From positions 1 to 34,529 of IMG/VR virus record IMGVR_UViG_3300037808_000271: DNA of 34,529 nt; one strand, 5' to 3'. Origin of the DNA: a virus. Below the pieces are notes generated by a model. That model was not told the DNA's origin. It saw nothing but the letters and a program-made list of their open reading frames with translations, and ran no database searches. This document shows positions 5,037-33,907 of the stretch, one piece after another. Numbering within the stretch: the first letter of the stretch is position 1; the number at the start of each line of letters is the position of its first letter. Both the position numbers and the translations under genes were made by a program.

Positions 5037-6008
5037 ATGCATACATCTATTTATAGTGGCCTCAATTATTAGGTAGACATAATAACTGATCTTAATCCTA
5101 TAGGAACAGAAAGATATTATATTGGATCCGCTACTCGAAAGGAACTCTCTGAAAATAATATTGATCCAGAAAAAGATCAATATTACGGATCTTCGTATAC
5201 ACCTCACTTTAGAACACTTCAAGATTCTCAGTCTCTTCAATTAGAGCGTGTCATAGTTAAAACATTTAATGATGTTAAAGAGTGTCTTGAATATGAGGAG
5301 ATGTTGCAAAGGGAGCATAATGTAGCATCTAATCCATTATTCTATAATTTATCATATGCATCGGGAGTTGTTAATACCCCAATATCCACAGCTAAGATGG
5401 TATATAAACGTTCATTGAAAGATGAAAATGGAGAGACGTCATATCAACGTGGAGGGAGAAAAGCAGCTATAACTAAATCTATTCCAGATTTAAATGGAGT
5501 ATCAATTGCTCAGTTGAGTGCGAGAAAAGCAGCTGTAACTAGGAATATAGCAAAAGATGATGGAACCACTATCGCTGAAATAGCAAGACAGAAGGCAAAT
5601 TCAACTAAATTAATTCTAGATGAAAATGGGGAAATCTCTAATCAACGAGGAGGGAGAAAATCATCAGAAACTAAATCATCTAAACAATGGAAAGATGAAC
5701 ATTCTGTTGAATGTCCTCACTGTAATATGATATCAACATCAGCGTGGATAATGTCTAAATACCATAATAACAATTGTTTCAAATTAGATCTGTCTCGTAT
5801 GTGGAATGTATATCACGAAACCGATTCACTTTTATATTCTGAAATATCTAAACAATCTATGAATGTGTTACATAAAAAGTTGATTATTTCGTCACATACT
5901 AATAGAATAGGAAACACTTGTAGATCAAAATCTAAACTCATTAAACACAATAAAGAGCATTTAATAGGAGCATATGCTATTAGATTAGATCATCTGATTA
6001 CCCGTTAA
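5037..6008 (+). pseudogene. GIY-YIG homing endonuclease, copy 1, nonsense-mutated
   Basis: ATG at 5037 opens MHTSIYSGLN like the intact copies, but codon 12 is TAG where the others have a Tyr/Phe codon, and the next residues of the GIY motif (YVYL in the intact copy) read VDII. The rest of the frame is open to 6008: RYYIGSATRKEL (second half of GIY-YIG), ERVIVKTFNDVKECLEYEEM, NPLFYNLSYA, then DENGETSYQRGG-type modules and a C-terminal zinc-finger-like CPHC...HNNNC. A shorter product from ATG 5301 would lack the nuclease half. The end overlaps the convergent PAAR gene by 11 bases. I call it inactive unless the amber codon is suppressed. Confidence 0.8.
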
Positions 6009-6321
6009 TGAATACATTGTTTGATCCTGTTACAGTAATATGATCTCCTCCAAATGCATCTCCCTTTCTCATTGCACCTTTACTGTTAATAAAAACATTT
6101 GGACTGTGAGTGGAACAGGTTGGGGCGTGAGGAGTACAACAAGGTCCTGCGTAAGTGTGAGTAATCATTGCATCTCCTTGACGAACATTACCAATTGAAT
6201 TAGTGAATACATTACCACTTCCCGCATTTGTACTATGACTAGATGGGGAACCGCAACAAAATCCGGAACCATCCGGGTCAGATGTTGCATCAACTCCATC
6301 TTTTCGTACTGCTGCTGGCAT
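5998..6321 (-). CDS. PAAR-type spike tip protein
   Basis: 107 residues. The N-terminus MPAAVRKDGVDATSD, Cys/His-rich centre (GFCCGSPSSH, then THTYAGPCCTPHAPTCSTH) and C-terminal HITVTGSNNVFING are those of PAAR-repeat proteins, with three copies of a (N)VFxNSxGxxRxGD element. Conserved His and Cys would bind a metal ion at the tip. PAAR proteins (T4 gp5.4, 97 residues) cap the gp5 beta-helix spike and sharpen it for outer-membrane piercing. The ATG overlaps the stop of the upstream gene by one base, placing it at the end of the hub/spike segment (gp27, gp5, Cys-motif protein, PAAR). Confidence 0.9.
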   Translation of the reverse strand: MPAAVRKDGVDATSDPDGSGFCCGSPSSHSTNAGSGNVFTNSIGNVRQGDAMITHTYAGPCCTPHAPTCSTHSPNVFINSKGAMRKGDAFGGDHITVTGSNNVFING

Positions 6322-7904
6322 TACATATACTCCGCTTGAGCAGCATCAATTTCTGCTCTAGTCATTTTACTTCCGTCAGCTTTTGTCCAAGGCTCAGGTT
6401 GATTACCATTAAATAGAGCAGGACTGTTTATCCCTTGTGTAATATTAAATGAAGATTCTATTGAATTGATATTAAATCCACTAGTATCAACTGAGGAACT
6501 TACATTATTAACTGGTACTAATGAACTTATCTTATTAGATATGGTGCTGAATAGATTACCTCCGATACCATTCACAACAGGTGTATTAATACTAGGTGTA
6601 TTAATACTAGGTGTAATAGATGATATACTAGATAGTGTATTCAGTTCCACTGTAGTTATCTTAGCACTTATGTTAATGGGAATCTTCACATTATTCGTTA
6701 CGGTTGATGTTGGGATTGTAGGAATTTGGGGTATTGTAGGTAAAAATTCAGTATATGGAGCATTTGATGTGATAGGAGTATCACTTTCGATGGTTTGACA
6801 TCTCCATTCCCCACCATTAGATATACAATCAGCTTCATTCCCGTCAAAGGGATCTCCTCCATGACATACACAACTCTCTCCTCCCCCTTGAGGTGGCAAT
6901 CCTTTGAGAGCGTTACTGATTAATGGTAAATATGATTTAGCCTCGTCTGGTATCAATGCTTCAATAATCTCCCCACAAGGACCAGTTGATACACTCAAAC
7001 TAGAGAGTTTGCTCATTTTCTCAAGATAACCAGTTGCTTTAGCAACCAATGCAACACCTTTAGCATGAAGAGCTTCAACTGCCCCTTGGAGTTTATTACA
7101 CGCTCCATCCATGTCATCTGCGACGTTATCTATACTGTTTATGTTGTTCATAAAGTCTATATTAAATGTATTCGCAGCAGAACCTGATACTTCTTGACAC
7201 CTCCATTCCCCTCCATTAGATAGACAATCAGTTTCATTCCCATCAAAGGGATCTCCTCCATGACATACACAACTCATTACAGGTCCATCTGAACTAGGTA
7301 ATGCTGTAAAAAGATCAGAGTTCATGCTATTTGTTATTTTGTCTATTGAAGATTCAACTGATGTTAAGTTGGATGTAGATGTGAATTCATCGAGAAGATT
7401 CTCTCCTTTCATCACCACATCGAGACCTTCTCCACAATCAATTAATTTAGATGCTGTTTTGTATGCATCTAATATTGCTGTATTCTTAGGAACATCAGTT
7501 ACGTTCTTATCTACAATATTCTGAACCACTTGAGAACATACTGAGGTATTATTAGCAAGAGTGTCGATTTTAGACAAAGCCGCTTTAATCTTCACTTGAT
7601 CATTTGGTACAAAACCAGCAAGGTTTAGCTGTGATGGATTAGTGTAGCCTATTTTATGTGATGCATTCATTGATGTACCTAGACTTGATATACTATTAAG
7701 TTTATCTTGACCAGGGAAACGTAAGAAAGAATCAGCATTATCTATAGTATTGTTAAAACCACCACCAGTGATACTCCCAAAATCAGGTACTCCAGCTGGA
7801 ACCTCTTGGCCAATCCAATTACCTCCTGATGCTAAACATTCAGCCTCTGAGAAAGCCATTGGATCACCCATTTGACAAGTGTAACCGATTCGTGTTTGTG
7901 TCAT
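6321..7904 (-). CDS. Hub/spike-region protein with three Cys-Gly-Trp motifs
   Basis: 527 residues; no family recognised. Three copies of a short motif C-x(2-3)-GDP-x(5-7)-E-x2-C-x3-GG-x-W stand out: near residues 10-31 (CQMGDPMAFSEAECLASGGN), about 210-237 (CHGGDPFDGNETDCLSNGGE) and about 345-372 (CHGGDPFDGNEADCISNGGE). Between them are long Ser/Thr/Asn/Ile-rich low-complexity stretches; the last 150 residues contain SINTPSINTP repeats. There is no signal peptide. Its position between gp5 and the PAAR tip, within nine bases of gp5, implies a tail hub or spike role, or a cargo carried by the tail. The Cys pairs could make disulphide or metal knots. Function unknown. Confidence 0.7.
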   Translation of the reverse strand: MTQTRIGYTCQMGDPMAFSEAECLASGGNWIGQEVPAGVPDFGSITGGGFNNTIDNADSFLRFPGQDKLNSISSLGTSMNASHKIGYTNPSQLNLAGFVPNDQVKIKAALSKIDTLANNTSVCSQVVQNIVDKNVTDVPKNTAILDAYKTASKLIDCGEGLDVVMKGENLLDEFTSTSNLTSVESSIDKITNSMNSDLFTALPSSDGPVMSCVCHGGDPFDGNETDCLSNGGEWRCQEVSGSAANTFNIDFMNNINSIDNVADDMDGACNKLQGAVEALHAKGVALVAKATGYLEKMSKLSSLSVSTGPCGEIIEALIPDEAKSYLPLISNALKGLPPQGGGESCVCHGGDPFDGNEADCISNGGEWRCQTIESDTPITSNAPYTEFLPTIPQIPTIPTSTVTNNVKIPINISAKITTVELNTLSSISSITPSINTPSINTPVVNGIGGNLFSTISNKISSLVPVNNVSSSVDTSGFNINSIESSFNITQGINSPALFNGNQPEPWTKADGSKMTRAEIDAAQAEYM

Positions 7905-11721: not shown

Positions 11722-12723
11722 ATGCATACGTCTATTTATAATGGTAACAATTTTTACGTTTATCTTATTACTGATCTTAATCCTATAGGAACAGAGAGGT
11801 ATTATATTGGATCATCTACTCGGAAGGAACTTCAAGAAAATAACATTGATCCCGAAAATCACAGATATTTTGGATCATCATATGTTAAATATTTCAGAAG
11901 TCTTCAAGATGTGTGCTCATCTCAATTAGAACGTGTTGTAGTTAAAACGTTTAATAACTCTAAAGAGTGTCTTGAGTATGAAGAGTTTTTACAGAGAGAC
12001 CACGAAGTAGCTTCTAATCCATTATTTTACAATTTATCTTATGCTAACTGCAACATGACTAATACTCCTGAGTCTACAGCTAAACAATGTGAAACGATTA
12101 ATGATCCTAAGTGGAAGGCAACTGTTGGTAAAGAGGGTATGGTTAAACGATCTAAAACGATTAATGATCCTAAGTGGAAGGCAACTGTTGGTAAAGAGGG
12201 TATGATTAAACGATCTAAAACGATTAATGATCCTGAGTGGATGGCAACTGTTGGTAAAGAGGGTATGATTAAACGATCTAAAACGATTAGTGATCCTGAA
12301 TGGAAGGCTACTATTGGTAAAGAGGGTATAGCTAAACAACTTAAAATATTTAGTGATCCTGAATGGAAGGCTACTATTGGTAAAGAGGGTATAGCTAAAC
12401 AAGTTGCAACTGTTAGTGATGAAACATGGAAGGCTACTATTGGTAAGGAGCAAACACGGAAAAGATTAGAGACCAATTATGGACACAAGTGTTATGGATT
12501 CAAAGGAGTTGGAGAGTATCACACGATTGTAGATTTACATCACGCTATTAAGAGTGTGTATGGTTGTTGCACATCACTTAGAATAATTCGGAGATATTTT
12601 AAAAATCTAGATGCTACCATCTGCAACAAATCATTTATTAGAAGTCCGTTTCTTCAATCACTAGGGGAGAATTTTACCAGAAAGACGTGGAGAGATGTTG
12701 GTTTTTATTATTATACCACATAA
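11722..12723 (+). CDS. GIY-YIG homing endonuclease, copy 2 (intact)
   Basis: 333 residues. The catalytic domain covers about residues 1-105: FYVYLITDLNPIGTERYYIG (GIY and YIG halves), ERVVVKTFNNSKECLEYEEF with the expected catalytic Glu, and NPLFYNLSYAN. Residues 115-245 are six near-identical 21-residue modules of the type NDPKWKATVGKEGMVKRSKT, probably DNA-contacting modules of the NUMOD kind. The C-terminal domain ends FLQSLGENFTRKTWRDVGFY, shared with the other copies here. Such enzymes cut a recipient genome near their insertion site and spread by repair. It lies on its own between gp48 (divergent) and gp4. Confidence 0.88.
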   Translation: MHTSIYNGNNFYVYLITDLNPIGTERYYIGSSTRKELQENNIDPENHRYFGSSYVKYFRSLQDVCSSQLERVVVKTFNNSKECLEYEEFLQRDHEVASNPLFYNLSYANCNMTNTPESTAKQCETINDPKWKATVGKEGMVKRSKTINDPKWKATVGKEGMIKRSKTINDPEWMATVGKEGMIKRSKTISDPEWKATIGKEGIAKQLKIFSDPEWKATIGKEGIAKQVATVSDETWKATIGKEQTRKRLETNYGHKCYGFKGVGEYHTIVDLHHAIKSVYGCCTSLRIIRRYFKNLDATICNKSFIRSPFLQSLGENFTRKTWRDVGFYYYTT

Positions 12724-15212: not shown

Positions 15213-15382
15213 TTAGCTTCACTCATGATTTAAAATCTTATTTTGAAATAAATTTTAGCCTTATACAACATCATAAGTGGAGCTTGACAGAAATTGAGAG
15301 TTTGGTTCCTTGGGAACGAGAAGTATATGTTGGATTGTTGTTAAAGCACTTAAAAGAAATGGAAAAAGAGAATGCCAAATAA
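14511..15382 (+). CDS. gp26 -1 frameshift product (gp26 plus C-terminal tail)
   Basis: At codons TCG TTT TTT TAA, seven T in a row (15204-15210) precede the stop. Slipping back one base gives TTA ATT AGC TTC and a 57-codon extension ending at 15382, total about 290 residues. The tail reads FTHDLKSYFEINFSLIQHHK, WSLTEIESLVPWEREVYVGL, LLKHLKEMEKENAK, a pattern I know as the C-terminal end of gp26-type proteins in related phages. The tail has no ATG before its last few codons and no ribosome site of its own. It overlaps the tape-measure start by 11 bases. The layout parallels the frameshifted tape-measure chaperones of lambda (G/GT) and P2 (E/E'). A sequencing error in the T run is the alternative. 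Confidence 0.65.
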
Positions 15383-18005
15383 ATTACCTATCGTGAATCA
15401 AATTAAAGATAATGATCAGAATGAGGCTAATCGTCATAAAGAATTAATTGAAACAGTATCGAAAATGATACCAGCTCAGAATAATACACCTGACGCTTTT
15501 GGTGATATCGCTAAAAACATTCGAGAAGAAATGAGATCAGGAGTGGAATCTGCAACACGAGCTGCTGATCTACATTTCAAACAAGAGCAACTCACAAAAG
15601 ATATAATGCACGATGCAAGTCTATCAAATGCAGATAGGCTTGCTGAAGAAGCTAAAGCACACGCTGATAAATTAACTGATATGGATATTGAAGCAGCTAA
15701 AGATGCTGCTGATAAAGTAGAGGTTTTGGCTAAGAAGGAACGTGAAAGAGCAGAACATAGAGCAGATATGACTCCTGGTTTGAAAGGGGTGGCTATGCGA
15801 TCTAAGGTTAAGATCAAAGATGGCTTAGGTAAAGCTAAACAAACAGTGGTTGATAAGTTAAAGGAGCATGGTACTAAGATCGCAATTGGAGCTGGTTTAG
15901 TTGCTCTAGAAAGTATATATAATAATTGGGATAAAATTGCAGCTGCTTGGAATGATGTTAAAGAAAGTTTATCATCATACGTTAATAAGATTCCTTCTAT
16001 ATTCCCTACAATCGCCGCAGTTACAGCCGCCTGGAGTAAATGGGGAAATAGTATTAAAGCTAGCAGTGTAGCTATAACAGAATCAGTAAAGAAAACTAAA
16101 TTAGGAGGAGCTCTCTTTAACGCCTCTAATGCTGTAAAGGAGTTCAGTGGTAACATTGCCTCTCGGATTAACACTATAACAGATACCATAAAGAATAGTA
16201 AAGCTTGGAATCTCATGAAGGCAGCAACAAGTTCTATTGGAAATGTGATTAAAAGTGTTGGGGCAGTAGCTAAAACTGCTACAATAGCTGCTGCAACTGG
16301 TGGGTTATCTCTTCTAATGCCTAAAAAAGATGAAGTTGCTAAAGCTGCTAAAGCTGCTAAAGCTGGAACACTTGGCACTACTCTATCGAAAGCAGGTACA
16401 TTTTTAGGTAAGTTTGCAACTATTCTAGGTAAGATTGCTTGGCCATTAACTGCAGTGATGGGTATATATGAAGGTTTCCGATCTAGTGTAGATGATTTTA
16501 AAGCTGGTGATATAGGCACAGGCATTCTTAATTTTAATAAAGGTGTTATCAAGAGTGTTATCGGTGCTCCTCTTGATCTCATTAAGAGTGTAATTTCGTG
16601 GATTGTGGGGTTCTTTGGAGGTACCGACCTAGAGAAGAAGATGGATGAATTCTCTTTCTCAGAATCAATTGATAATATATTCAAAGCTATACCCGAATTT
16701 TTCGCTAAAATAGGACAACTTGTGAGGGATCTTTTACCGTCATGGGAAACTATAAAAGCTGAGTTCGGTGACTTCTGGAAGGATCCTAAAGGATATATAG
16801 TAAATGCATTTAACTCGTTTAAATTAAATTTACCGTCATGGGAAACTATAAAAGCTGAGTTCGGTGACTTCTGGAAGGATCCTAAAGGATATATAGTAAA
16901 TGCATTTAACTCGTTTAAATTAAATTTACCGTCATGGGAAACTATAAAAGAATCGATGCCTAAATGGCTTACTAACTTCGGTGGTTGGATGGGATCGAAG
17001 CTTAACACATATATGTTAACTTTACCATCATGGGAAACTATAAAAGAATCGATGCCTAAATGGCTTACTGACTTCGGTGGTTGGATGGGATCGAAGCTTA
17101 ACACATATATGTTAACTTTACCGTCATGGGAAACTGTAAAGACAGGGTTATCAGAATTTTGGAAGGATCCTAAAGGTTATATAGTGAAATCATTTACTAA
17201 TTGGAAGCTGAGTTTACCATCATGGGAAACTATAAAAATGGGGTTATCAGAATTTTGGCAAAATCCAGTTAAATATATCCAGAATAAGATTAATGGATGG
17301 CTAACGTTTGAGGATGATAAAGGTGTTAATATTAGTATATTTGATAAGATTACTAGTATGGTAGATGAGTATATAACTAATCCTATATTAGATCTCTTTG
17401 ATACTATAGGCAATGCTCTAGATAATATAAAATTATCAGTTATGAAGTGGGTTGAGGAAAAAGGGACTTTCTTTGGATCTAAGACTATTGACTATTCAGA
17501 TGAAATAGCAGATACTGAAAAAAGAATAGCTAAAAGAGATGCTACGAAACTTGCAAGGAATTCTAAAGATAGTGATACTGTATTCGATACACTACTTGCA
17601 GATGGAGGATTAAATGGAATAGAACCTGTCCCTGAACATGCAGGTGTTCCGATTCCAGGAGAATCAACTCCAACTATTACTATTGAATTTGGAGAAGGAG
17701 AAGCTTTTGCAGATGGACAATCGTTAGGTCCTGTTACATATGATTCCAAGACAGCTGGTATATCTAGTTTAACTCCTGCTCAATCTACAGCTGATACATA
17801 TAAAACATTGAAAAATTCTGGTAACCAAGATGGGGCTAATATATATCTAGCTAATATGATTAAAGGTAATAAAGAGTTTATGGAGCAGGTAATAAATGCT
17901 ATATCAGGTATAACAAGATCTGGAAACGCTAATGTGAACAATAGTTCAACTACTAATATACTTAACGCTGGATCACCATACCCAGACCCAGTGATAGCTC
18001 GATAA
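15372..18005 (+). CDS. Tape-measure/hub protein (gp29-type)
   Basis: 877 residues, larger than T4 gp29 (590). Residues 1-140 are charged and helical, with coiled-coil character (ELIETVSKMI, EEAKAHADKLTDMDIEAAKD). Ala/Gly-rich hydrophobic segments follow near residues 165-185, 290-315 and 345-370, and ISWIVGFFGG near 410, as in tape measures that insert in the host membrane. Six 32-residue repeats beginning LPSWET(I/V)K occupy about residues 455-646. The C-terminus is low-complexity. Position directly after gp26 and its frameshift tail supports a tape-measure role: it sets tail length and is ejected ahead of DNA. The first two repeats are almost identical DNA copies. Confidence 0.82.
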   Translation: MPNKLPIVNQIKDNDQNEANRHKELIETVSKMIPAQNNTPDAFGDIAKNIREEMRSGVESATRAADLHFKQEQLTKDIMHDASLSNADRLAEEAKAHADKLTDMDIEAAKDAADKVEVLAKKERERAEHRADMTPGLKGVAMRSKVKIKDGLGKAKQTVVDKLKEHGTKIAIGAGLVALESIYNNWDKIAAAWNDVKESLSSYVNKIPSIFPTIAAVTAAWSKWGNSIKASSVAITESVKKTKLGGALFNASNAVKEFSGNIASRINTITDTIKNSKAWNLMKAATSSIGNVIKSVGAVAKTATIAAATGGLSLLMPKKDEVAKAAKAAKAGTLGTTLSKAGTFLGKFATILGKIAWPLTAVMGIYEGFRSSVDDFKAGDIGTGILNFNKGVIKSVIGAPLDLIKSVISWIVGFFGGTDLEKKMDEFSFSESIDNIFKAIPEFFAKIGQLVRDLLPSWETIKAEFGDFWKDPKGYIVNAFNSFKLNLPSWETIKAEFGDFWKDPKGYIVNAFNSFKLNLPSWETIKESMPKWLTNFGGWMGSKLNTYMLTLPSWETIKESMPKWLTDFGGWMGSKLNTYMLTLPSWETVKTGLSEFWKDPKGYIVKSFTNWKLSLPSWETIKMGLSEFWQNPVKYIQNKINGWLTFEDDKGVNISIFDKITSMVDEYITNPILDLFDTIGNALDNIKLSVMKWVEEKGTFFGSKTIDYSDEIADTEKRIAKRDATKLARNSKDSDTVFDTLLADGGLNGIEPVPEHAGVPIPGESTPTITIEFGEGEAFADGQSLGPVTYDSKTAGISSLTPAQSTADTYKTLKNSGNQDGANIYLANMIKGNKEFMEQVINAISGITRSGNANVNNSSTTNILNAGSPYPDPVIAR
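16734..17309 (+). repeat. Six 96-base repeats in the tape-measure gene
   Basis: Units start LPSWETIK or LPSWETVK and are exactly 32 codons each. Units 1 and 2 share AEFGDFWKDPKGYIVNAFNS, units 3 and 4 share ESMPKWLT(N/D)FGGWMGSKLN, units 5 and 6 are more diverged. Pairwise near-identity implies stepwise recent duplication. Confidence 0.9.
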
Positions 18006-19142: not shown

Positions 19143-19965
19143 ATGCATACATCTATTTATAGCGGCCTCAACTTTTACGTTTATCTGATTACAGACTTGA
19201 ATCCAATAGGAACGGAGAAGTATTATATTGGATCCGCAACACGCAAAATATTAAAAGAAGATAACATTGATCCAGAATTAGATACTTATTATGGATCATC
19301 AACCGTCGAGCATTTTAGGATCCTTCAAGATTCTCGATCATCGCAATTGGAACGTGTTGTTATTAAAACGTTTATGGATAGTAGAGTGTGTCGAATGTAT
19401 GAAGAGATGATACAAAAAGATCACAATGTTATTGAAAATCCTCTATTTTACAATAAAGCGTATGCTAATGGTGTAACCACATCTTCGAAAGAATCCACAA
19501 TTAAACGGTTAAACACTATGATTGGTGATATTGATGAAAATGGTCTTGATGGGATACAGCGAGCATCTTTAAAACGAGTTGATACTATGAATAATGATGT
19601 GGATGAAAAAGGATTCAATGCTCATCAACGATCAACAGTTAAACATTATGATTAGTGATATTGATGAAAATGGTTTTAACACGTTTCAGCGAGCAACTGT
19701 AAAGAGATGGGATTCTAGCATAGGAAGAATATGTCACAAGTCTTTGGGATGTTTCAAATTTGCTCGGGAGATAGGGGAATTAACATTAATATCAAAGCAC
19801 AAGATGTGTAGACTTGTGAATAAACGATTTAACGTTGTGATCACTAAACGATCATACCTTCAAAACAATTATCTCAAATCTATAGGATCTGAGAATGAGA
19901 TAGTTGGGTTAACTTGGAAGGATCTTGGATTTTATATGGAATCTACTAGATCAGCTGTTTTTTAA
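19143..19965 (+). pseudogene. GIY-YIG homing endonuclease, copy 3, frameshifted
   Basis: The nuclease half is intact: FYVYLITDLNPIGTEKYYIG, ERVVIKTFMDSRVCRMYEEM, NPLFYNKAYAN. Two complete DIDENGLDGIQRASLKR-type modules follow. Inside the third, the frame hits TAG at 19653 (TVKHYD-stop). One frame over, the module pattern continues without break as MISDIDENGFNTFQRATVKR and runs to a normal C-terminus (YLKSIGSENEIVGLTWKDLG) ending at 19965. A single indel near 19640-19650 therefore splits the gene. The N-terminal 170-residue product could still fold as a nuclease without its DNA-binding tail. It lies antisense between gp32 and the small early genes. Confidence 0.82.
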
Positions 19966-22801: not shown

Positions 22802-22877
22802 TGGTGCCGCCACGGGGATTCGAACTCCGGACCTACGCATTACAAGTGCGTTGCTCTACCAGCTGAGCTATAGCGGC
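22802..22877 (-). tRNA. tRNA-Thr (anticodon TGT), CCA encoded
   Basis: Minus strand: acceptor GCCGCTA pairs with TGGCGGC (one G-T), D-arm GCTC-AGCTGGTA-GAGC, anticodon arm CGCACTTGTAATGCG with loop CTTGTAA, T-arm CCGGAGTTCGAATCCCCGTGG region, discriminator A and templated CCA. It would read ACA/ACG and other ACN threonine codons, which are frequent in these AT-rich genes. It lies between the HNH relic and a terminator. Confidence 0.96.
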
Positions 22878-23568: not shown

Positions 23569-24021
23569 TTACGTGTTTTCTAACATAAGCTCTGATTTAC
23601 CTATTGATAAACTTCTAATTTTCTTGTGTTCCGGAACTTTTTCATCTAACCACACACTCAAAATACCATCATCAAAAGATACATTATCTGGAATAAGATC
23701 GTCACTAACTACACGTGACCATTCGAAACCCCGTTTAGCTATACCGTGTTGAATCCATTTAAAATCAACATCATCAGGATATTCATCTTCTTTTGGATCT
23801 CCTTTAATAGTGAGTTTATTATTCCCTACAATCACTTCAAGTTCTTCTCTTAACCAACCAGCTAATGCTAAATCTACTCGAAAACGTTTATCATTATTTT
23901 CATTTAAGTATGATGCGATATTGCATGGGGGGAATTTCTGATCTACTGGAACAGTATTCATATTACGAAGCATAGGTTCAAAACCAAATGCTCTATTAAA
24001 GAGTGTATCTAAATCATTCAT
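23569..24021 (-). CDS. Small heat-shock protein Hsp20 (IbpA-like)
   Basis: 150 residues. N-terminus MNDLDTLFNRAFGFEPMLRN resembles IbpA-type starts. The alpha-crystallin core runs from about residue 30: FPPCNIASYLNENNDKRFRV, DLALAGWLREELEVIVGNNK, LTIKGDPKE, IQHGIAKRGFEWSRVVSDDL, VSFDDGILSVWLDEKVPEHK, KIRSLSI. sHSPs hold unfolding proteins; T4-like marine phages often carry one, probably for capsid or replication protein folding. SD CAGGAGA seven bases before the ATG. It follows the tmRNA on the same strand and is probably in the same early transcript, ending at the terminator at 23521-23550. Confidence 0.92.
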   Translation of the reverse strand: MNDLDTLFNRAFGFEPMLRNMNTVPVDQKFPPCNIASYLNENNDKRFRVDLALAGWLREELEVIVGNNKLTIKGDPKEDEYPDDVDFKWIQHGIAKRGFEWSRVVSDDLIPDNVSFDDGILSVWLDEKVPEHKKIRSLSIGKSELMLENT

Positions 24022-24074
24022 TATTGTCTCCTGACAAATTGGGACCCAAAAGGCATCCCGGTTAATACAATATA

Positions 24075-24620
24075 CGACCCTATGTCATGTACTGTTAATA
24101 CGAGAATGGAGAACTCGTAAAAGAGAATAAAGTTTCAGGGATATCTCATTACTCAGATACAGAAAAGTTTCCTTTTAAGTGTACCGTGAACCCAACCATT
24201 TTGAAATAAGATCCTCTCTGTTGGATAATAAAGATGAGAGGATGAGATATTCTTCAGATGAAATTCTAAGCGTTAGCTTGTAATCTCATAGCAGTAGAAC
24301 GGGATGCCCATACAGGTGTTCCTTCTACTTTAAATGCAGTTTTAGTGTCATTTAAGTTTTAAAGTGCTTCTTATATTAAGTCAATTCAATTTCAGTTTAC
24401 ACCTATCATTGAACTCTCAATCACGGCTTTAGCATTGCCGATTCTAAATAATGATCATTATACGTTAGTCGATTCCAATTCATCCCCATCATAAGTACAT
24501 TAATATAATCCGTGAATTAATATACTTATGGTGGAGATGACGGGATTTGAACCCGTGTGCTATCCGCCTTTTTCATTACCATCATCAAATTCTGTTTACA
24601 ATCTTTTTGTTGAATTATCT
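24075..24620 (-). ncRNA. ssrA: Circularly permuted (two-piece) tmRNA
   Basis: On the minus strand the acceptor half comes first: CACGGGTTCAAATCCCG T-arm (complement of about 24541-24557), acceptor strand TCATCTCC, discriminator A and CCA ending at 24529. A 41-base intervening hairpin follows (TAAGTA...TACTTA). The 5' half then begins GGGGATGAATTGGAATCGAC at 24487. GGGGATGA pairs with TCATCTCC, with a G3-U wobble, the alanine identity element. A second helix joins the halves: TCATTATT (24447-24454) with GGTAATGA (24573-24580). A tag frame ends ATGRLQ-like: STAMRLQANA-stop (stop 24266-24268); upstream in frame GCA at 24337 could be the resume codon, giving 23 residues. Hairpins CCTCTC/GAGAGG (24213-24241), AAAAG/CTTTT and ACGAG/CTCGT fit the pseudoknot region. 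Outer ends are estimates; processing would remove the intervening loop. Confidence 0.87.
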
Positions 24621-24645
24621 CTGTATTTATCCTTATTATGAATCT

Positions 24646-24674
24646 ATTATAACACATTTCTAATCTTTTGTTAA
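24646..24674 (-). promoter_or_regulatory. Early promoter of tmRNA-hsp20
   Basis: TTAACA, 17 bases, TATAAT, with ATGTGT before the -10. The expected start is near 24639, some 40-60 bases before the acceptor half of the tmRNA. Confidence 0.8.
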
Positions 24675-24693
24675 CTATCTCAATGAACTAAAT

Positions 24694-27865: not shown

Positions 27866-29023
27866 ATGTTATCTTATACAGGCCTTAACTTTTATGTTTA
27901 CTTGATAACAGATTTAAATCCAATAGGAACCGAACGATACTACATCGGTTCCTCTTATCGCAAAGAATTACAAGAAAATAATATCAATCCTGAAGAGGAT
28001 ACTTACTTTGGATCATCTTCCAATCCCCATCTCAGAGCTCTTCAAAGAAATCAATCACCTCAATTAGAACGTGTTATCATTAAAACACTCTCAACTAATA
28101 TTGAATGTTTAAACTATGAAGAGACTATTCAAAGAGAACATGAAGCAGCTTCTAATCCTCTATTTTACAATAAGGGGTACGCTAACATGGGATTCTGTAA
28201 TTCACCTAAAACATTAAAGAAGATTGTATCGAATAGGAGAAATGATATAGATGAAAATGGATTAGATTCGTATCAGAGAGCATCTATTAAAGGTGTTAAA
28301 GCTAAAAAGTTGGACGTTGATGGTAATGGATTAGATACATATAAACGATCATCCATTAAGAGTATAGCTACAAAGAAAAACGATATAGATGAAGATGGGT
28401 TCAATGGATGTCAAAGGGTAATTCAGAAGAAGTTAGATACAATGAGAAAGGATATTGATGATGGTCTCGATGGATGTCAACGAGCAGTATTTAAAGGTGT
28501 TATTACTAAACTACAAGATATCGATGATAATGGGTTTAACACCTTTCAGAGAGCATCCGTTAAAGGGATTAAAGCTAAGAGGTTGAACATTGATGATAAC
28601 GGGTTTAACACCTTTCAGAGAGCATCCGTTAAAGGGATTAAAGCTAAGAAGTTAGATATTGATGATAATGGTCTTAATGGTTGTCAAAGGGCTATGAATA
28701 AGAGATTGGATACAATGCAAACTAATATAGATGAGAATGGTCTTAATGGTTGTCAAAGAGTAGCTCGAAAGAAGAATGCTCATCTGGGATTGATATGTCA
28801 CGATGAGTACGGATGCTTCCATTTTGCCCATGAGATAATAAACATATTACCATTATTAAAGGTAACTGTTATTAACTCTCTCAGAAAGAAACACTTTAAT
28901 GTAGTTATCACCACGAAATCCTATAACATGAATAAGTATCTTCAATCATTAGGATGTAAAGATGATATTATTGGTTTAACCTGGAATGATTTAGGTTTCT
29001 ACATTAAAGATGTAGATAAATAA
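27866..29023 (+). CDS. GIY-YIG homing endonuclease, copy 5 (intact)
   Basis: 385 residues. Nuclease domain 1-105: FYVYLITDLNPIGTERYYIG, QLERVIIKTLSTNIECLNYE with the catalytic Glu, NPLFYNKGYAN. Eight or nine modules of about 21-22 residues follow (DIDENGLDSYQRASIKGVKA type), two of them (NGFNTFQRASVKGIKAK) nearly identical in DNA. C-terminal domain SLRKKHFNVVITTKSYNMNK, YLQSLGCKDDIIGLTWNDLG. Unlike copies 1-4 it lacks the late-promoter/hairpin cassette and the MHTS start; it begins MLSYTGLN, two bases after the preceding small gene, so it is read from that gene's transcript. It sits directly before gp13. Confidence 0.88.
   Translation: MLSYTGLNFYVYLITDLNPIGTERYYIGSSYRKELQENNINPEEDTYFGSSSNPHLRALQRNQSPQLERVIIKTLSTNIECLNYEETIQREHEAASNPLFYNKGYANMGFCNSPKTLKKIVSNRRNDIDENGLDSYQRASIKGVKAKKLDVDGNGLDTYKRSSIKSIATKKNDIDEDGFNGCQRVIQKKLDTMRKDIDDGLDGCQRAVFKGVITKLQDIDDNGFNTFQRASVKGIKAKRLNIDDNGFNTFQRASVKGIKAKKLDIDDNGLNGCQRAMNKRLDTMQTNIDENGLNGCQRVARKKNAHLGLICHDEYGCFHFAHEIINILPLLKVTVINSLRKKHFNVVITTKSYNMNKYLQSLGCKDDIIGLTWNDLGFYIKDVDK
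29015..29022 (+). promoter_or_regulatory. Late promoter of gp13, inside the GIY-YIG 3' end
   Basis: GATAAATA formed by the last Asp-Lys codons and the TAA stop of the endonuclease. It lies 16 bases before the gp13 ATG, with AGAAAGGA between. Confidence 0.65.
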
Positions 29024-29875: not shown

Positions 29876-31210
29876 ATGCATATTTATCCAACTAAGACTT
29901 TCATCAACAAGTATCATAAATGGTACTATTCAATCATATCTAATCGTGTGTTGAATCCTATATTTAGAGAAGATATGTATGTAGAGAAGCATCACATTAC
30001 TCCTAAGAGTTTAGGTGGTTCCAATAAACATACTAATATAGTTAATTTAACAGCTCGGGAACATTTCATTTGTCATATATTATTAACTAAATTCCTTGAA
30101 GGTCAAGCAAAGTATAAAATGCTTTCTGCTGTTACTTTAATGAATAGATTAAAGGATACAATTAATTCAAAGGTATATGAACAAGCTCAGAAATGTAAAT
30201 CTACATTTAAATCATATTATAACATTAATGATGGTAAATTTGAGTGGTATGATGTAGATCCAGGAGAAGGATGGATTAAACAAGGTATATCTCGTTATAC
30301 TAAAATATGGCACAATAACATTACAAATGAGTATATTAGAGATAAGGTTTCTCCTGGAGTTGAATGGGTGAATGAAGCTCCGAATAAAGGAACAACTTAC
30401 TGGTACAATTCCAATACCAATGAATATATCTGCAGTTTTGAGTGTCCAGGAGAGGGATGGATTAAACAAGGACATGCAATTAATAAACTTACATGGTATA
30501 ACACACATACCAATGTTTATAAAAAATCAATTAATAAGCCTATCGGAGAATGGGTTGAACAAGGCACTCAAATAGGAACAAATTTCTGGTACAATGAATC
30601 TAAAATGAAATACACAACCTCTAAGATTTCTCCTGGAGATGGTTGGGTTAAACAAGGGCCATCTAAAGATACTTTATTCTGGTACAATGATAAGATGGAT
30701 ACGTATACATCTGCTAGAAACTCTCCAGGAGATGATTGGGAAAGAAGGGGAGTTAATACCAATAAACATTTCTGGATGAATGTAAATAACGGAGATTATA
30801 CAACCTCTGTAGATTCTCCAGGAGATGATTGGATTAAACAAGGACCTAACATAGGAACCACATCATGGACAAATACTGTGACAGGAGAATGTGTTAGAAC
30901 TACAAATAAACCATCTGGATGTAATTGGATTAATAAAGGATCTCACGGAGGAACTCGCTCTGGTACATTTAAAGGATATTACTGCCATACCAAGTATGGA
31001 GAGTATCCATCTGCTGGTGAATTATCGGAAGCAATAGGTAACATAGGAACAGCTACAATCATAAGAATAATTAATAAATTGGATAATAAAATTTCTAAAT
31101 CATCATATACACAAGGAAGATATCTTCAAAGTATCGGTTCTCGGGATGTTATAGTGGGACAGACATGGAGAGATGTAGGGTTTTATTTTATTCCCAAAGA
31201 TAAATACTGA
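29876..31210 (+). CDS. HNH homing endonuclease with repeat modules
   Basis: 444 residues. HNH core at about residues 35-75: VEKHHITPKSLGGSNKHTNI, VNLTAREHFICHILLTK (His-His, Asn, His). Residues 120-360 carry about seven units of roughly 35 residues with the pattern PG-x2-W-x-KQG followed by T-x2-WYN-x(6-8)-Y. The C-terminal domain (GYYCHTKYGEYPSAGELSEA, YLQSIGSRDVIVGQTWRDVG, FYF) is the same module that ends the GIY-YIG enzymes in this window. It inserts between gp13 and gp14. SD GAGGAAG before ATG 29876. Appears intact. Confidence 0.88.
   Translation: MHIYPTKTFINKYHKWYYSIISNRVLNPIFREDMYVEKHHITPKSLGGSNKHTNIVNLTAREHFICHILLTKFLEGQAKYKMLSAVTLMNRLKDTINSKVYEQAQKCKSTFKSYYNINDGKFEWYDVDPGEGWIKQGISRYTKIWHNNITNEYIRDKVSPGVEWVNEAPNKGTTYWYNSNTNEYICSFECPGEGWIKQGHAINKLTWYNTHTNVYKKSINKPIGEWVEQGTQIGTNFWYNESKMKYTTSKISPGDGWVKQGPSKDTLFWYNDKMDTYTSARNSPGDDWERRGVNTNKHFWMNVNNGDYTTSVDSPGDDWIKQGPNIGTTSWTNTVTGECVRTTNKPSGCNWINKGSHGGTRSGTFKGYYCHTKYGEYPSAGELSEAIGNIGTATIIRIINKLDNKISKSSYTQGRYLQSIGSRDVIVGQTWRDVGFYFIPKDKY
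31199..31206 (+). promoter_or_regulatory. Late promoter, leaderless layout (gp14), inside HNH 3' end
   Basis: GATAAATA is formed by the Asp-Lys-Tyr codons that end the HNH gene; CTGAT then the gp14 ATG follow. Confidence 0.7.
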
Positions 31211-31211
31211 T

Positions 31212-32072
31212 ATGGCTACTTCACAATATTTCAATCACTTTAACTCGACCAATGAACAAGATCTTCTTCACGATCTATCAATGGAGTTTATCTCAAATTA
31301 TGGGATTGATTTGGTGTATTTACCCCGAGAACGATTAAAAGAAGATCTTATATTCGGAGAAAGCACTTTAGATAGATTCTCTGAGACTTATGAACTAGAA
31401 ATGTATATATCTAGTACTGACTCTTTTGAGGGAGAAGGAGAAGTATTTCAACAATTTGGTATCGAAATAAAAGATAGAGTGTCACTTCAGGTTAATCCTA
31501 GAAACTTTCAACATTACACTACTATGGATCACCCGTTGGAAGGAGACTTAATATACTTCCCTTTAAATGATAGTTTATTTGAGATCACTTATGTATCGAG
31601 TGATAGATCTAGTTTCTATCCTATGGGAACTCTTCCTTATCTTGAACTTCAGTGTGAGTTATTCACATATGCTAATGAAGAGTTTGATACTGATAATATA
31701 TCGATTGATGATATCGAGAATATTACAGATCAACCAATAACAGATTATCCGATATTGATTAATGCTCCGGTTGGTATACAAGATTGGAAATCAAATCATA
31801 GATATTCTGTAGGAGATTTAGTGCATCCTACTGCTAATGGTATGTGGACAGGGTTGTGGTATAAGGTAGTTCAACAGACGGGATTAGGAATGTCTAATAT
31901 CCCGTCTCAAGAGCCATCATGGCCTCGAGGAGCTAAGGATGTAATACAGGATCATGAGTTAATTTGGGAGGCAACTGGAATTAATAATGAGTTTGACACT
32001 ATTCAAACGGAAGGTAATGATATATTAAACTTTGATGAATTAGATCCTTTTAATTTTACTGACTATACCTGA
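31212..32072 (+). CDS. 14: Neck protein gp14
   Basis: 286 residues (T4 gp14 is 256). N-terminus SQYFNHFNSTNEQDLLHDLS, MEFISNYGIDLVYLPRE; core DLIFGESTLDRFSETYELEM, then EGEGEVFQQFGIEIKDRVSL, GDLIYFPLNDSLFEITYV, typical of gp14. Near residues 190-260 there is an extra segment, WKSNHRYSVGDLVHP...LWYKVVQQTG...SWP...HELIWEATG, with the spacing of small carbohydrate-binding-like (ChtBD/CBM5-12) domains. C-terminus FDELDPFNFTDYT. gp14 binds gp13 and completes the neck. Stop overlaps the next gene's ATG (TGATG). Confidence 0.9.
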   Translation: MATSQYFNHFNSTNEQDLLHDLSMEFISNYGIDLVYLPRERLKEDLIFGESTLDRFSETYELEMYISSTDSFEGEGEVFQQFGIEIKDRVSLQVNPRNFQHYTTMDHPLEGDLIYFPLNDSLFEITYVSSDRSSFYPMGTLPYLELQCELFTYANEEFDTDNISIDDIENITDQPITDYPILINAPVGIQDWKSNHRYSVGDLVHPTANGMWTGLWYKVVQQTGLGMSNIPSQEPSWPRGAKDVIQDHELIWEATGINNEFDTIQTEGNDILNFDELDPFNFTDYT

Positions 32073-33907
32073 TGAGATATATTAGATATAGAGATAATAT
32101 ATCGATATTAGCAATTAATGCATCAGATAATCCTGAGTTAATACCTAATCAAGTCAATTTGATTAAAGATCGCCGCTTAGTTAATCTCAATCAAAGTACA
32201 TTTACTAAACAAAGTAGTTGGGTTCCTGCATCTCAAAGCACATCTGATGTGAGAATATTAAGAGCTGAACCATCAAGAGATACTCTTAGTACATATGCTA
32301 CTGAGGATGGTATATACACATCAAACCTTGAATCTGATATGATGGAAGCTTGGGCAGGATTAATCAATTTTCTTGATGTTGTAGCTGATTCAAGAGCATT
32401 CATTGAAGGATCATCTGATACATTCTTGAATGGTAACTTATCTGCAATCGGTTCCATCTATTATCAAGTTTATGCTGACATTCATCTTGATTTGAATGAT
32501 CTTATGTCTGTTTGGTCTGTTCTTGGGGATGGAGCAGGAAATATACAAGGTATCTCTTATGGAGAAGCAGATACAATTGTTACTCGATATGCAACAGCTG
32601 ATGTAACTGGAGGAGTTGACATCAACTCAGATTCTGTTATGTTATATCAAGCTTCATCTAACATTCACGGAAGTTCAATTTATGTGAATGCTGGAGTGAT
32701 TGTTGGGGATGGATGTGCTGTATCTATATCAGGATCTAATATAATTGCTGATTGTTCTATACAGAAAGCAGGATCTGGATTGTGTACTATTAACGTTGAT
32801 ATTCAATGTCAATCTCACAATACTTCATATAATTCATTAACAATTGATGGAGGAGGAGTATCTGTTGTTGGAGGGGGAGCGTATCATATTGGAGCTGGAA
32901 TCACATTCTCTAACTGTTCAATCGAAGTGTATGCTGTTAAATTAGTTACAGTGTCAGCTGATATCAATAATGAAGTTACAGTAACAATTAATCCTATAGT
33001 TGCAGATGCAGCAGCTGGAGTATTCATTTCTAATGTATTATCACTTAACGTTAATCCTTATATTATTAGAATGGCATCAGCTGAAGTATATGTAAATTGT
33101 GATTCAGTTGCTATTTGGGAACCATTCCATTATTATCCTATTGCAGATGTATTGGGATCAGCCTCATTGGAATGTAATCCTAATACTATTATAGGAAGAT
33201 CTCGTGCAGATGTTCATTGTTCAGGGGCTTTGATGGGAGCTGCATCTTCTCATAGCTATGGATGGGATACATATGTTAATACAGCTTCAGTTGTTGTTGA
33301 TAACGCTCAGCAGCATATAGTTGAACCGTTTGAAGCAAAAGCTCAAGCTCTTGTGGATGTTTGGGCTTCTAAAGTGTTTGAGGGAAAGGCTAGTATTGAT
33401 ATTGATTCTGGAGTTGTATCGATATCTGGAGTTGTTGGAGATGGATCGGCGAGTGTAATCAACATAGGAATAATCTCTGTTGCATCTCAAGTTACGTTTG
33501 ATACTCAGTTAAATAGTATGAAAGGATCATTAACAGTTGACACTCAACCTATAATCAATCATAATACTGTATCAGAGATGCAAGGAGAATCATATGCTAG
33601 TATTTGGGTTAATATGAACTTCTCATGTGATGCTGATGTAGACATTGACTCTGGACTAATATCTGCTGGTGGTGTGAATGCTACTGGTGTTAGTATCCTT
33701 ATCACTCTAGCTGAATCTTTTGCATCACCATTAACAATACTTAATGGAGTAGCTGAACATGTTACAACTTGCTCAATTGAAACGTGGCCAGTGATTAATG
33801 CTATATGGACTGATCAATACGGACCTGAGTGGGCTGCTGTACAAGTTATTAGTATGGGTGTTGGTATATCTGGCGGACAAGCTGTTGTTACTGCTAACCC
33901 TGATTAA
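32072..33907 (+). CDS. Repetitive beta-rich virion protein (611 aa)
   Basis: 611 residues, coupled to gp14 by a TGATG overlap. N-terminal 90 residues are charged (MRYIRYRDNISILAINASDN, QSSWVPASQSTSDVRILRAE). The rest is a long run of irregular Ala/Ser/Val/Ile/Gly-rich beta repeats with alternating hydrophobics (ASIDIDSGVVSISGVVGDGS, ADVDIDSGLISAGGVNATGV), no membrane segment and few charges. C-terminal EQYGPEW-like region around residues 580-600 (WTDQYGPEWAAVQVISMGVG). The position after gp14 suggests a neck/collar or fibre-type virion protein. I recognise no family. It has the same style as the left-edge protein. Confidence 0.65.
   Translation: MRYIRYRDNISILAINASDNPELIPNQVNLIKDRRLVNLNQSTFTKQSSWVPASQSTSDVRILRAEPSRDTLSTYATEDGIYTSNLESDMMEAWAGLINFLDVVADSRAFIEGSSDTFLNGNLSAIGSIYYQVYADIHLDLNDLMSVWSVLGDGAGNIQGISYGEADTIVTRYATADVTGGVDINSDSVMLYQASSNIHGSSIYVNAGVIVGDGCAVSISGSNIIADCSIQKAGSGLCTINVDIQCQSHNTSYNSLTIDGGGVSVVGGGAYHIGAGITFSNCSIEVYAVKLVTVSADINNEVTVTINPIVADAAAGVFISNVLSLNVNPYIIRMASAEVYVNCDSVAIWEPFHYYPIADVLGSASLECNPNTIIGRSRADVHCSGALMGAASSHSYGWDTYVNTASVVVDNAQQHIVEPFEAKAQALVDVWASKVFEGKASIDIDSGVVSISGVVGDGSASVINIGIISVASQVTFDTQLNSMKGSLTVDTQPIINHNTVSEMQGESYASIWVNMNFSCDADVDIDSGLISAGGVNATGVSILITLAESFASPLTILNGVAEHVTTCSIETWPVINAIWTDQYGPEWAAVQVISMGVGISGGQAVVTANPD

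Follow-up and report, generated by a model that had tools for sequence, protein, structure and literature searches.

tmRNA releases ribosomes that have stalled and attaches a tag to the incomplete protein. The closest described system to the locus reported here is that of Melnitz, an isolated phage of the Kyanoviridae in whose annotation a permuted ssrA lies between dexA and gp33 (MZ577097.1, 45984-46436), and the phage permuted tmRNA as such has therefore already been published. A survey of 18,146 phage genomes gave 53 two-piece tmRNA candidates, of which 50 come from aquatic samples, and a permuted tmRNA is present in 17 of 47 Melnitz-like contigs (PMC9004378). In our own pattern scan for permuted tmRNAs at least 120 viral-contig stretches matched, and ARAGORN reads 101 of the 120 pattern-matched viral stretches listed as permuted tmRNAs. 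The initial annotation of the locus regarded phage tmRNAs as rare, a view that overrates their rarity, since among aquatic phages permuted tmRNAs are common and have been published. The locus is a divergent addition to this group, overlooked by the standard tRNA/tmRNA program at its default settings.

The window (the whole stretch of DNA analysed, a 34,529-base IMG/VR virus record) and Melnitz share a permuted two-piece tmRNA in a T4-like marine phage, the gp33/dexA/gp59/gp32 neighbourhood and an early promoter nearby (PMC9004378). Melnitz differs in having an ordinary tag of 14 residues (ANDNYVPVDYALAA), a glutamine riboswitch and an intervening segment longer than 100 nt, whereas the window has a 41-nt segment, a probable tag of 23-27 residues ending in -ANA and hsp20 directly downstream, and an Rfam search for the Melnitz-type riboswitch found none near its tmRNA. 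With the Rfam families RF04321 (tmRNA_permuted) and RF01849 (alpha_tmRNA) the locus shares the helices of the tRNA domain, the CCA, the G3-U70 pair and the gene order, but it is divergent from both, and the models leave the part beyond this domain uncovered.

Phage background of the window

Judged by gene content, the source of the window is a T4-like myophage. It encodes baseplate wedge and hub, tail tube, head closure and DNA end protector proteins together with gp32, the helicase loader gp59, the exonuclease DexA and a gp33-like regulator, and the tmRNA is flanked by phage genes of this kind (T4-like tail, gp32, gp59, gp33), which places it within a phage genome. At the DNA level no close relative of the window was found among isolated phages. 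At the protein level gp32 and DexA alone match isolated phages, with at most 52% identity among the records listed: gp32 reaches 52% identity to cyanophages at best among the 25 top records listed, and DexA is about 38-45% identical to Melnitz, phage C48C1 and cyanophages.

Identification of the permuted tmRNA gene

Both covariance models, the comparison that the initial annotation had proposed as a check, score the minus strand above their cut-offs: RF04321 matches 24591-24359 with 68.1 bits (E 3e-11; gathering cut-off 47) and RF01849 matches 24581-24447 with 54.5 bits (E 1.2e-12; gathering cut-off 50). The score of 68 bits lies far under those of alphaproteobacterial genes (115-166 bits), and ARAGORN at default settings reported no tmRNA in the window. 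Taken with the flanking phage genes and the synteny described below, these matches make it very probable, as read from the sequence, that the minus strand of the window carries a genuine but divergent phage-encoded permuted two-piece tmRNA (ssrA) gene. The parts of its tRNA-like domain and the two pieces are the following.

24529-24591, minus strand: acceptor piece, the 3' half of the tRNA-like domain, ending ...CUCCACCA (RF04321, RF01849 and sequence)
24488-24528, minus strand: intervening segment of 41 nt, a hairpin (shuffling test of a 53-nt hairpin, z -4.36)
24200-24487, minus strand: coding piece with GGGG 5' end, D-like arm, P2 strand, PK1 region, tag frame and post-tag pseudoknot
24481-24487, minus strand: acceptor helix, 5' strand GGGGAUG (sequence and Rfam alignment)
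24533-24539, minus strand: acceptor helix, 3' strand CAUCUCC, in which U70 pairs with G3 (sequence and Rfam alignment)
24540-24556, minus strand: T arm, ACGGG-UUCAAAU-CCCGU (sequence and Rfam alignment)
24573-24580, minus strand: P2 strand GGUAAUGA, partner 24454-24447 (sequence and Rfam alignment)
24447-24454, minus strand: P2 strand UCAUUAUU, partner 24580-24573 (sequence and Rfam alignment)
24424-24440, minus strand: hairpin CGGC-AAUGCUAAA-GCCG at the position of PK1 stem 1 (RF04321 alignment)

The main items of the architecture that had been proposed from the letters alone are all present. The CCA-bearing piece, which ends at 24529, precedes the GGGG-starting piece, which begins at 24487, on one strand (the minus strand, left unnamed in the initial annotation); the hairpin segment between them is exactly 41 nt long; and the second helix, P2, joins the two pieces by 8 bp between 24454-24447 and 24580-24573 precisely as described. 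The acceptor helix was given as 8 bp with a G3-U pair, and here the pair G3-U70 is present, but the helix of the mature RNA has 7 bp, the eighth pair, U(-1)-A73, being confined to the precursor. The 5' end of the acceptor piece probably lies at or upstream of 24591, and the intervening segment would be removed to yield the two pieces. For the coding piece RF04321 spans 24487-24359; the remainder was delimited by comparison with relatives, and its 3' end is approximate. In the PK1 region stem 1 (CGGC/GCCG) appears in the model alignment, a second stem was not identified and the pseudoknot is not clearly formed; the gap from this hairpin to the tag is longer in the window than in relatives.

The segment between the two pieces also varies elsewhere among phage permuted tmRNAs. 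In L195 the tRNA and tag parts are nearly identical to those of L194 and the intervening segment is much longer and unrelated, which suggests that this segment is freely swapped or expanded.

The probable tag frame and the structures around its end

The coding piece contains a reading frame ending ...STAMRLQANA, followed by TAG at 24268-24266, and three features bear on its function.

24266-24337, minus strand: probable tag frame AFKVEGTPVWASRSTAMRLQANA with TAG, 23 residues (ARAGORN at low threshold, hairpin, pseudoknot position)
24258-24289, minus strand: P5-type hairpin that encloses the stop and the final tag codons, AUGAGAUU-AC-AAGC-UAAC-GCUU-AG-AAUUUCAU
24211-24256, minus strand: post-tag pseudoknot, UGAAGA 24256-24251 with UCUUUA 24234-24229 and AUCCUCUC 24243-24236 with GAGAGGAU 24218-24211

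From the sequence, candidates for the first codon of the tag are GCA at 24337 and GAC at 24349; resumption at the latter would give a tag of 27 residues, DTKTAFKVEGTPVWASRSTAMRLQANA (DTKTAFKV...), and at a lowered threshold ARAGORN reads the same frame in this 27-residue version. The frame is supported as the tag because its stop lies in a hairpin, a pseudoknot follows just after it and its end is alanine, as in almost all tags. The hairpin is more stable than expected (z -2.85; 2 of 200 shuffles did as well in a test on 24287-24254), and a tag-end hairpin enclosing the stop codon is found in the window and its relatives alike. The pseudoknot starts nine bases 3' of the stop, and 4 of 100 shuffles were as good. 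On the other side, the length of the frame is no better than chance against shuffled sequence, and its similarity to the long tags of relatives (18, against a mean of 17.7 for shuffled DNA) is not above chance. The frame noticed in the initial annotation is thus present, and as a tag it is plausible rather than established; we consider it likely that ...RLQANA* ends the tag in use.

A pseudoknot of the same topology lies 6-9 nt past the stop in the window, L206, L198, L194 and L192, with unrelated sequences; that of L198 taken on its own is not better than shuffles, and in L197, L409 and L406 the best-scoring pseudoknot by the program is a different one. The loop CUUUAUUAUCCAA of the window resembles CCUUAUUAUCAAA and CCUUGUUAUCAAA of relatives. 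An alternative post-tag pseudoknot, in which the CCAAC loop pairs with GUUGG downstream, is possible.

Relatives and gene order

The viral contigs that share the window's tmRNA are 100% identical over the region and hence hold no covariation or codon evidence, and searches with hsp20 and with the open reading frame at 24692 as baits returned identical contigs only. A search with gp32 led to contigs of 57-63% gp32 identity with an above-threshold permuted tmRNA (L197-L199, 84-86 bits), and a scan with the tag DNA of those relatives added L206. In L131, L130 and L127 the order tmRNA-hsp20-gp33-dexA-gp59-gp32 lies on one strand, matching the window; L206 has tag, hsp20, gp33, dexA and gp59 in the same order, and its contig ends before gp32. 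With the same locus occupied in these relatives and in Melnitz, the gene seems to have long been established in this part of T4-like phage genomes.

Compared with the window, these uncultured T4-like phages (L131/L197, L206, L130/L198) share the orthologous place, the gene order, the post-tag pseudoknot, hsp20 as the next gene and, if the window frame is indeed the tag, an extended tag. They differ in tags of 29-30 residues ending in ASTRLAA (AKKKSYRVSKAIFAPFFGAQGVASTRLAA, AEKKSYRVSKAIFAPFFGAGSGVASTRLAA and AEKKGYRVSKAIFAPFFGAQTGFASTRLAA; ARAGORN itself reads AKKKSYRVSKAIFAPFFGAQGVASTRLAA and AEKKGYRVSKAIFAPFFGAQTGFASTRLAA) and in a T arm sequence unlike that of the window, and their tags have no detectable sequence similarity to the window tag. 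In less closely related T4-like phages the tags are short and of the usual kind, for example ANDEKFALAA, ANDNNAYVDYAIAA and ANANTYSLAA. The place of the tmRNA is thus fixed in this T4-like lineage, and its tag changes almost completely.

Among the relatives themselves the tag is kept largely through synonymous change, the tag codons of L206 and L130 differing by 7 synonymous and 4 non-synonymous changes. Their stop codon, UAA or UAG, changes in step with the paired leucine codon of the tag-end hairpin, UUA or CUA. As read from these sequences, UUA..UAA versus CUA..UAG is a compensating change that keeps the stop-codon pair in the hairpin.

Length and end of the probable tag

The candidate tag had been described as long and unlike the usual AND- or ANK-type tags, and the oddness of its length was overrated. 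A tag of 20-30 residues is unexceptional and is also found in bacteria with a permuted tmRNA. Long tags as a phage trait were considered and dropped: a first, smaller sample gave 8/61 phage tags and 1/33 bacterial (p 0.15), and with more bacteria added tags of at least 20 residues made up 10/66 distinct phage tags and 5/62 distinct bacterial tags (p 0.28). Two viral permuted tmRNAs missed by ARAGORN (L059 and L082) seemingly have, by eye, a long tag ending ...VNFGALNDFAVNEDFALAA.

The -QANA end of the window tag is the odd feature. Other -NA ends were found in 2 of the 66 phage tags and in none of the 62 bacterial tags; both end in -VAANA and belong to L033 (1955-2288) and L089 (5904-6249), with the tags ANDANFKVAANA and ANDAQFLVAANA. 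In E. coli the terminal Leu-Ala-Ala is the part of the tag recognised by ClpX, as Flynn et al. reportedly found in 2001. The -ANA end matches this -LAA signal poorly, which predicts an altered recognition by ClpXP, and it may be read poorly; the initial annotation was right to point to the fate of the tagged protein.

One possible reading, a sub-case of the genuine gene, is that the tmRNA works and its tag stabilises: with -ANA in place of -LAA it would be poorly read by host ClpXP, and tagged phage proteins would be spared. The role of the last tag residues as the ClpX signal in E. coli is established knowledge, and the -QANA end with the two -AANA tags of other phages, set against none among the 62 bacterial tags, points the same way; the orthologues at the same locus, however, end in an ordinary -RLAA, and two of 66 is a small number, so that we hold this reading to be doubtful, if worth keeping in mind. 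The broader proposal that a non-standard extended -ANA tag would allow ribosome rescue in which the product is not passed on to ClpXP, or would direct it to another protease or to a chaperone such as the neighbouring Hsp20, with trans-translation uncoupled from degradation, seems to us unlikely. If the -ANA tag were no degradation signal, the locus would offer a natural test of what the phage needs, ribosome rescue as against protein destruction, or rescue only.

Alternative origins of the locus

The gene could instead be a decaying or coding-free copy, of which the tRNA-like domain folds and the mRNA part lacks a used tag, and which would serve as a tRNA-like decoy or SmpB sponge blocking host trans-translation. 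Precedents have been reported, namely 72 permuted tmRNAs that lack a coding part and, in phage DS6A, an inhibitory RNA consisting of the TLD only (PMC11915505, PMC4131195). The low score against bacterial genes would agree with such a copy, as would a tag frame that is not above chance in length or similarity. Yet the promoter, the helices of the tRNA domain, the post-tag pseudoknot and the stop within the P5-type hairpin show no damage, and well-formed tags persist at this locus in close relatives, which makes such decay quite improbable. That the locus is a chance assembly of a tRNA-like sequence and unrelated DNA, or a bacterial tmRNA misassembled into a phage contig, would agree with the silence of ARAGORN at default settings but is ruled out for practical purposes by the two Rfam models above cut-off, the identical locus in other viral contigs, the flanking phage genes and above all the synteny of orthologues in the same T4-like gene order.

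Putative promoter, hsp20 and proposed mode of action

The preferred reading of a genuine two-piece tmRNA may be considered together with the elements on either side of the gene.

24646-24674, minus strand: putative promoter of the extended -10 sigma70 type, TTAACA-17 nt-TATAAT with TG ahead of the -10 (assigned by consensus match)
23569-24021, minus strand: hsp20, a small heat-shock protein gene, next downstream of the tmRNA (PF00011, E 1.3e-8; phrog_432, E 3e-24; synteny)

The promoter, already noticed upstream in the initial annotation, matches 11 of 12 consensus bases and lies just upstream of the tmRNA. From it a single precursor would be made, which, to judge by known permuted tmRNAs, the tRNA-processing nucleases of the host would cut into two pieces that would stay paired through the acceptor and P2 helices. 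By the same comparison the CCA end would be charged with alanine by the host AlaRS through the G3-U70 identity pair, and host SmpB would deliver the charged tmRNA to ribosomes that have come to a halt on broken mRNA. A search of 12 phage contigs, which are fragments, gave no SmpB gene. The ribosome would then resume on the coding piece, add a tag that ends ...RLQANA and is about 23 (or 27) residues long, and be freed. The likely purpose would be to keep the ribosome pool working during degradation of host mRNA. Such a role fits since the breakdown of host mRNA by a phage leaves many ribosomes stalled, and since a strong sigma70-type promoter and a small chaperone adjoin the gene; the position just upstream of hsp20 would likewise fit a protein-quality-control module.

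Between the tmRNA and hsp20 lies a leader of about 180 bases (24022-24200, minus strand) with several small hairpins just 5' of the hsp20 ribosome-binding site. Rfam gave here a weak match to the ROSE thermometer that is not significant (14.9 bits, E 3); it and the other low-scoring Rfam matches (snoRNA, microRNA) lie far below their cut-offs.

Other features of the window

A tRNA-Thr (TGT) at 22802-22877 on the minus strand matches, with 90% identity across 79 bases, the tRNA-Thr of phiKZ-type Pseudomonas aeruginosa jumbo phages, the sole DNA match in the phage collection for this half of the window. Genes resembling homing or HNH endonucleases, some of them assigned from weak matches only, lie among the structural genes at 5301-6008, 11722-12723, 19143-19655, 27866-29023 and 29876-31210 (plus strand). 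Three long open frames have no PHROGs or Pfam match, at 15372-18005 (plus strand, 877 residues), 32072-33907 (plus strand, 611 residues) and 6321-7904 (minus strand, 527 residues), and the first of these is overlapped by an antisense frame of 542 residues at 15476-17104.
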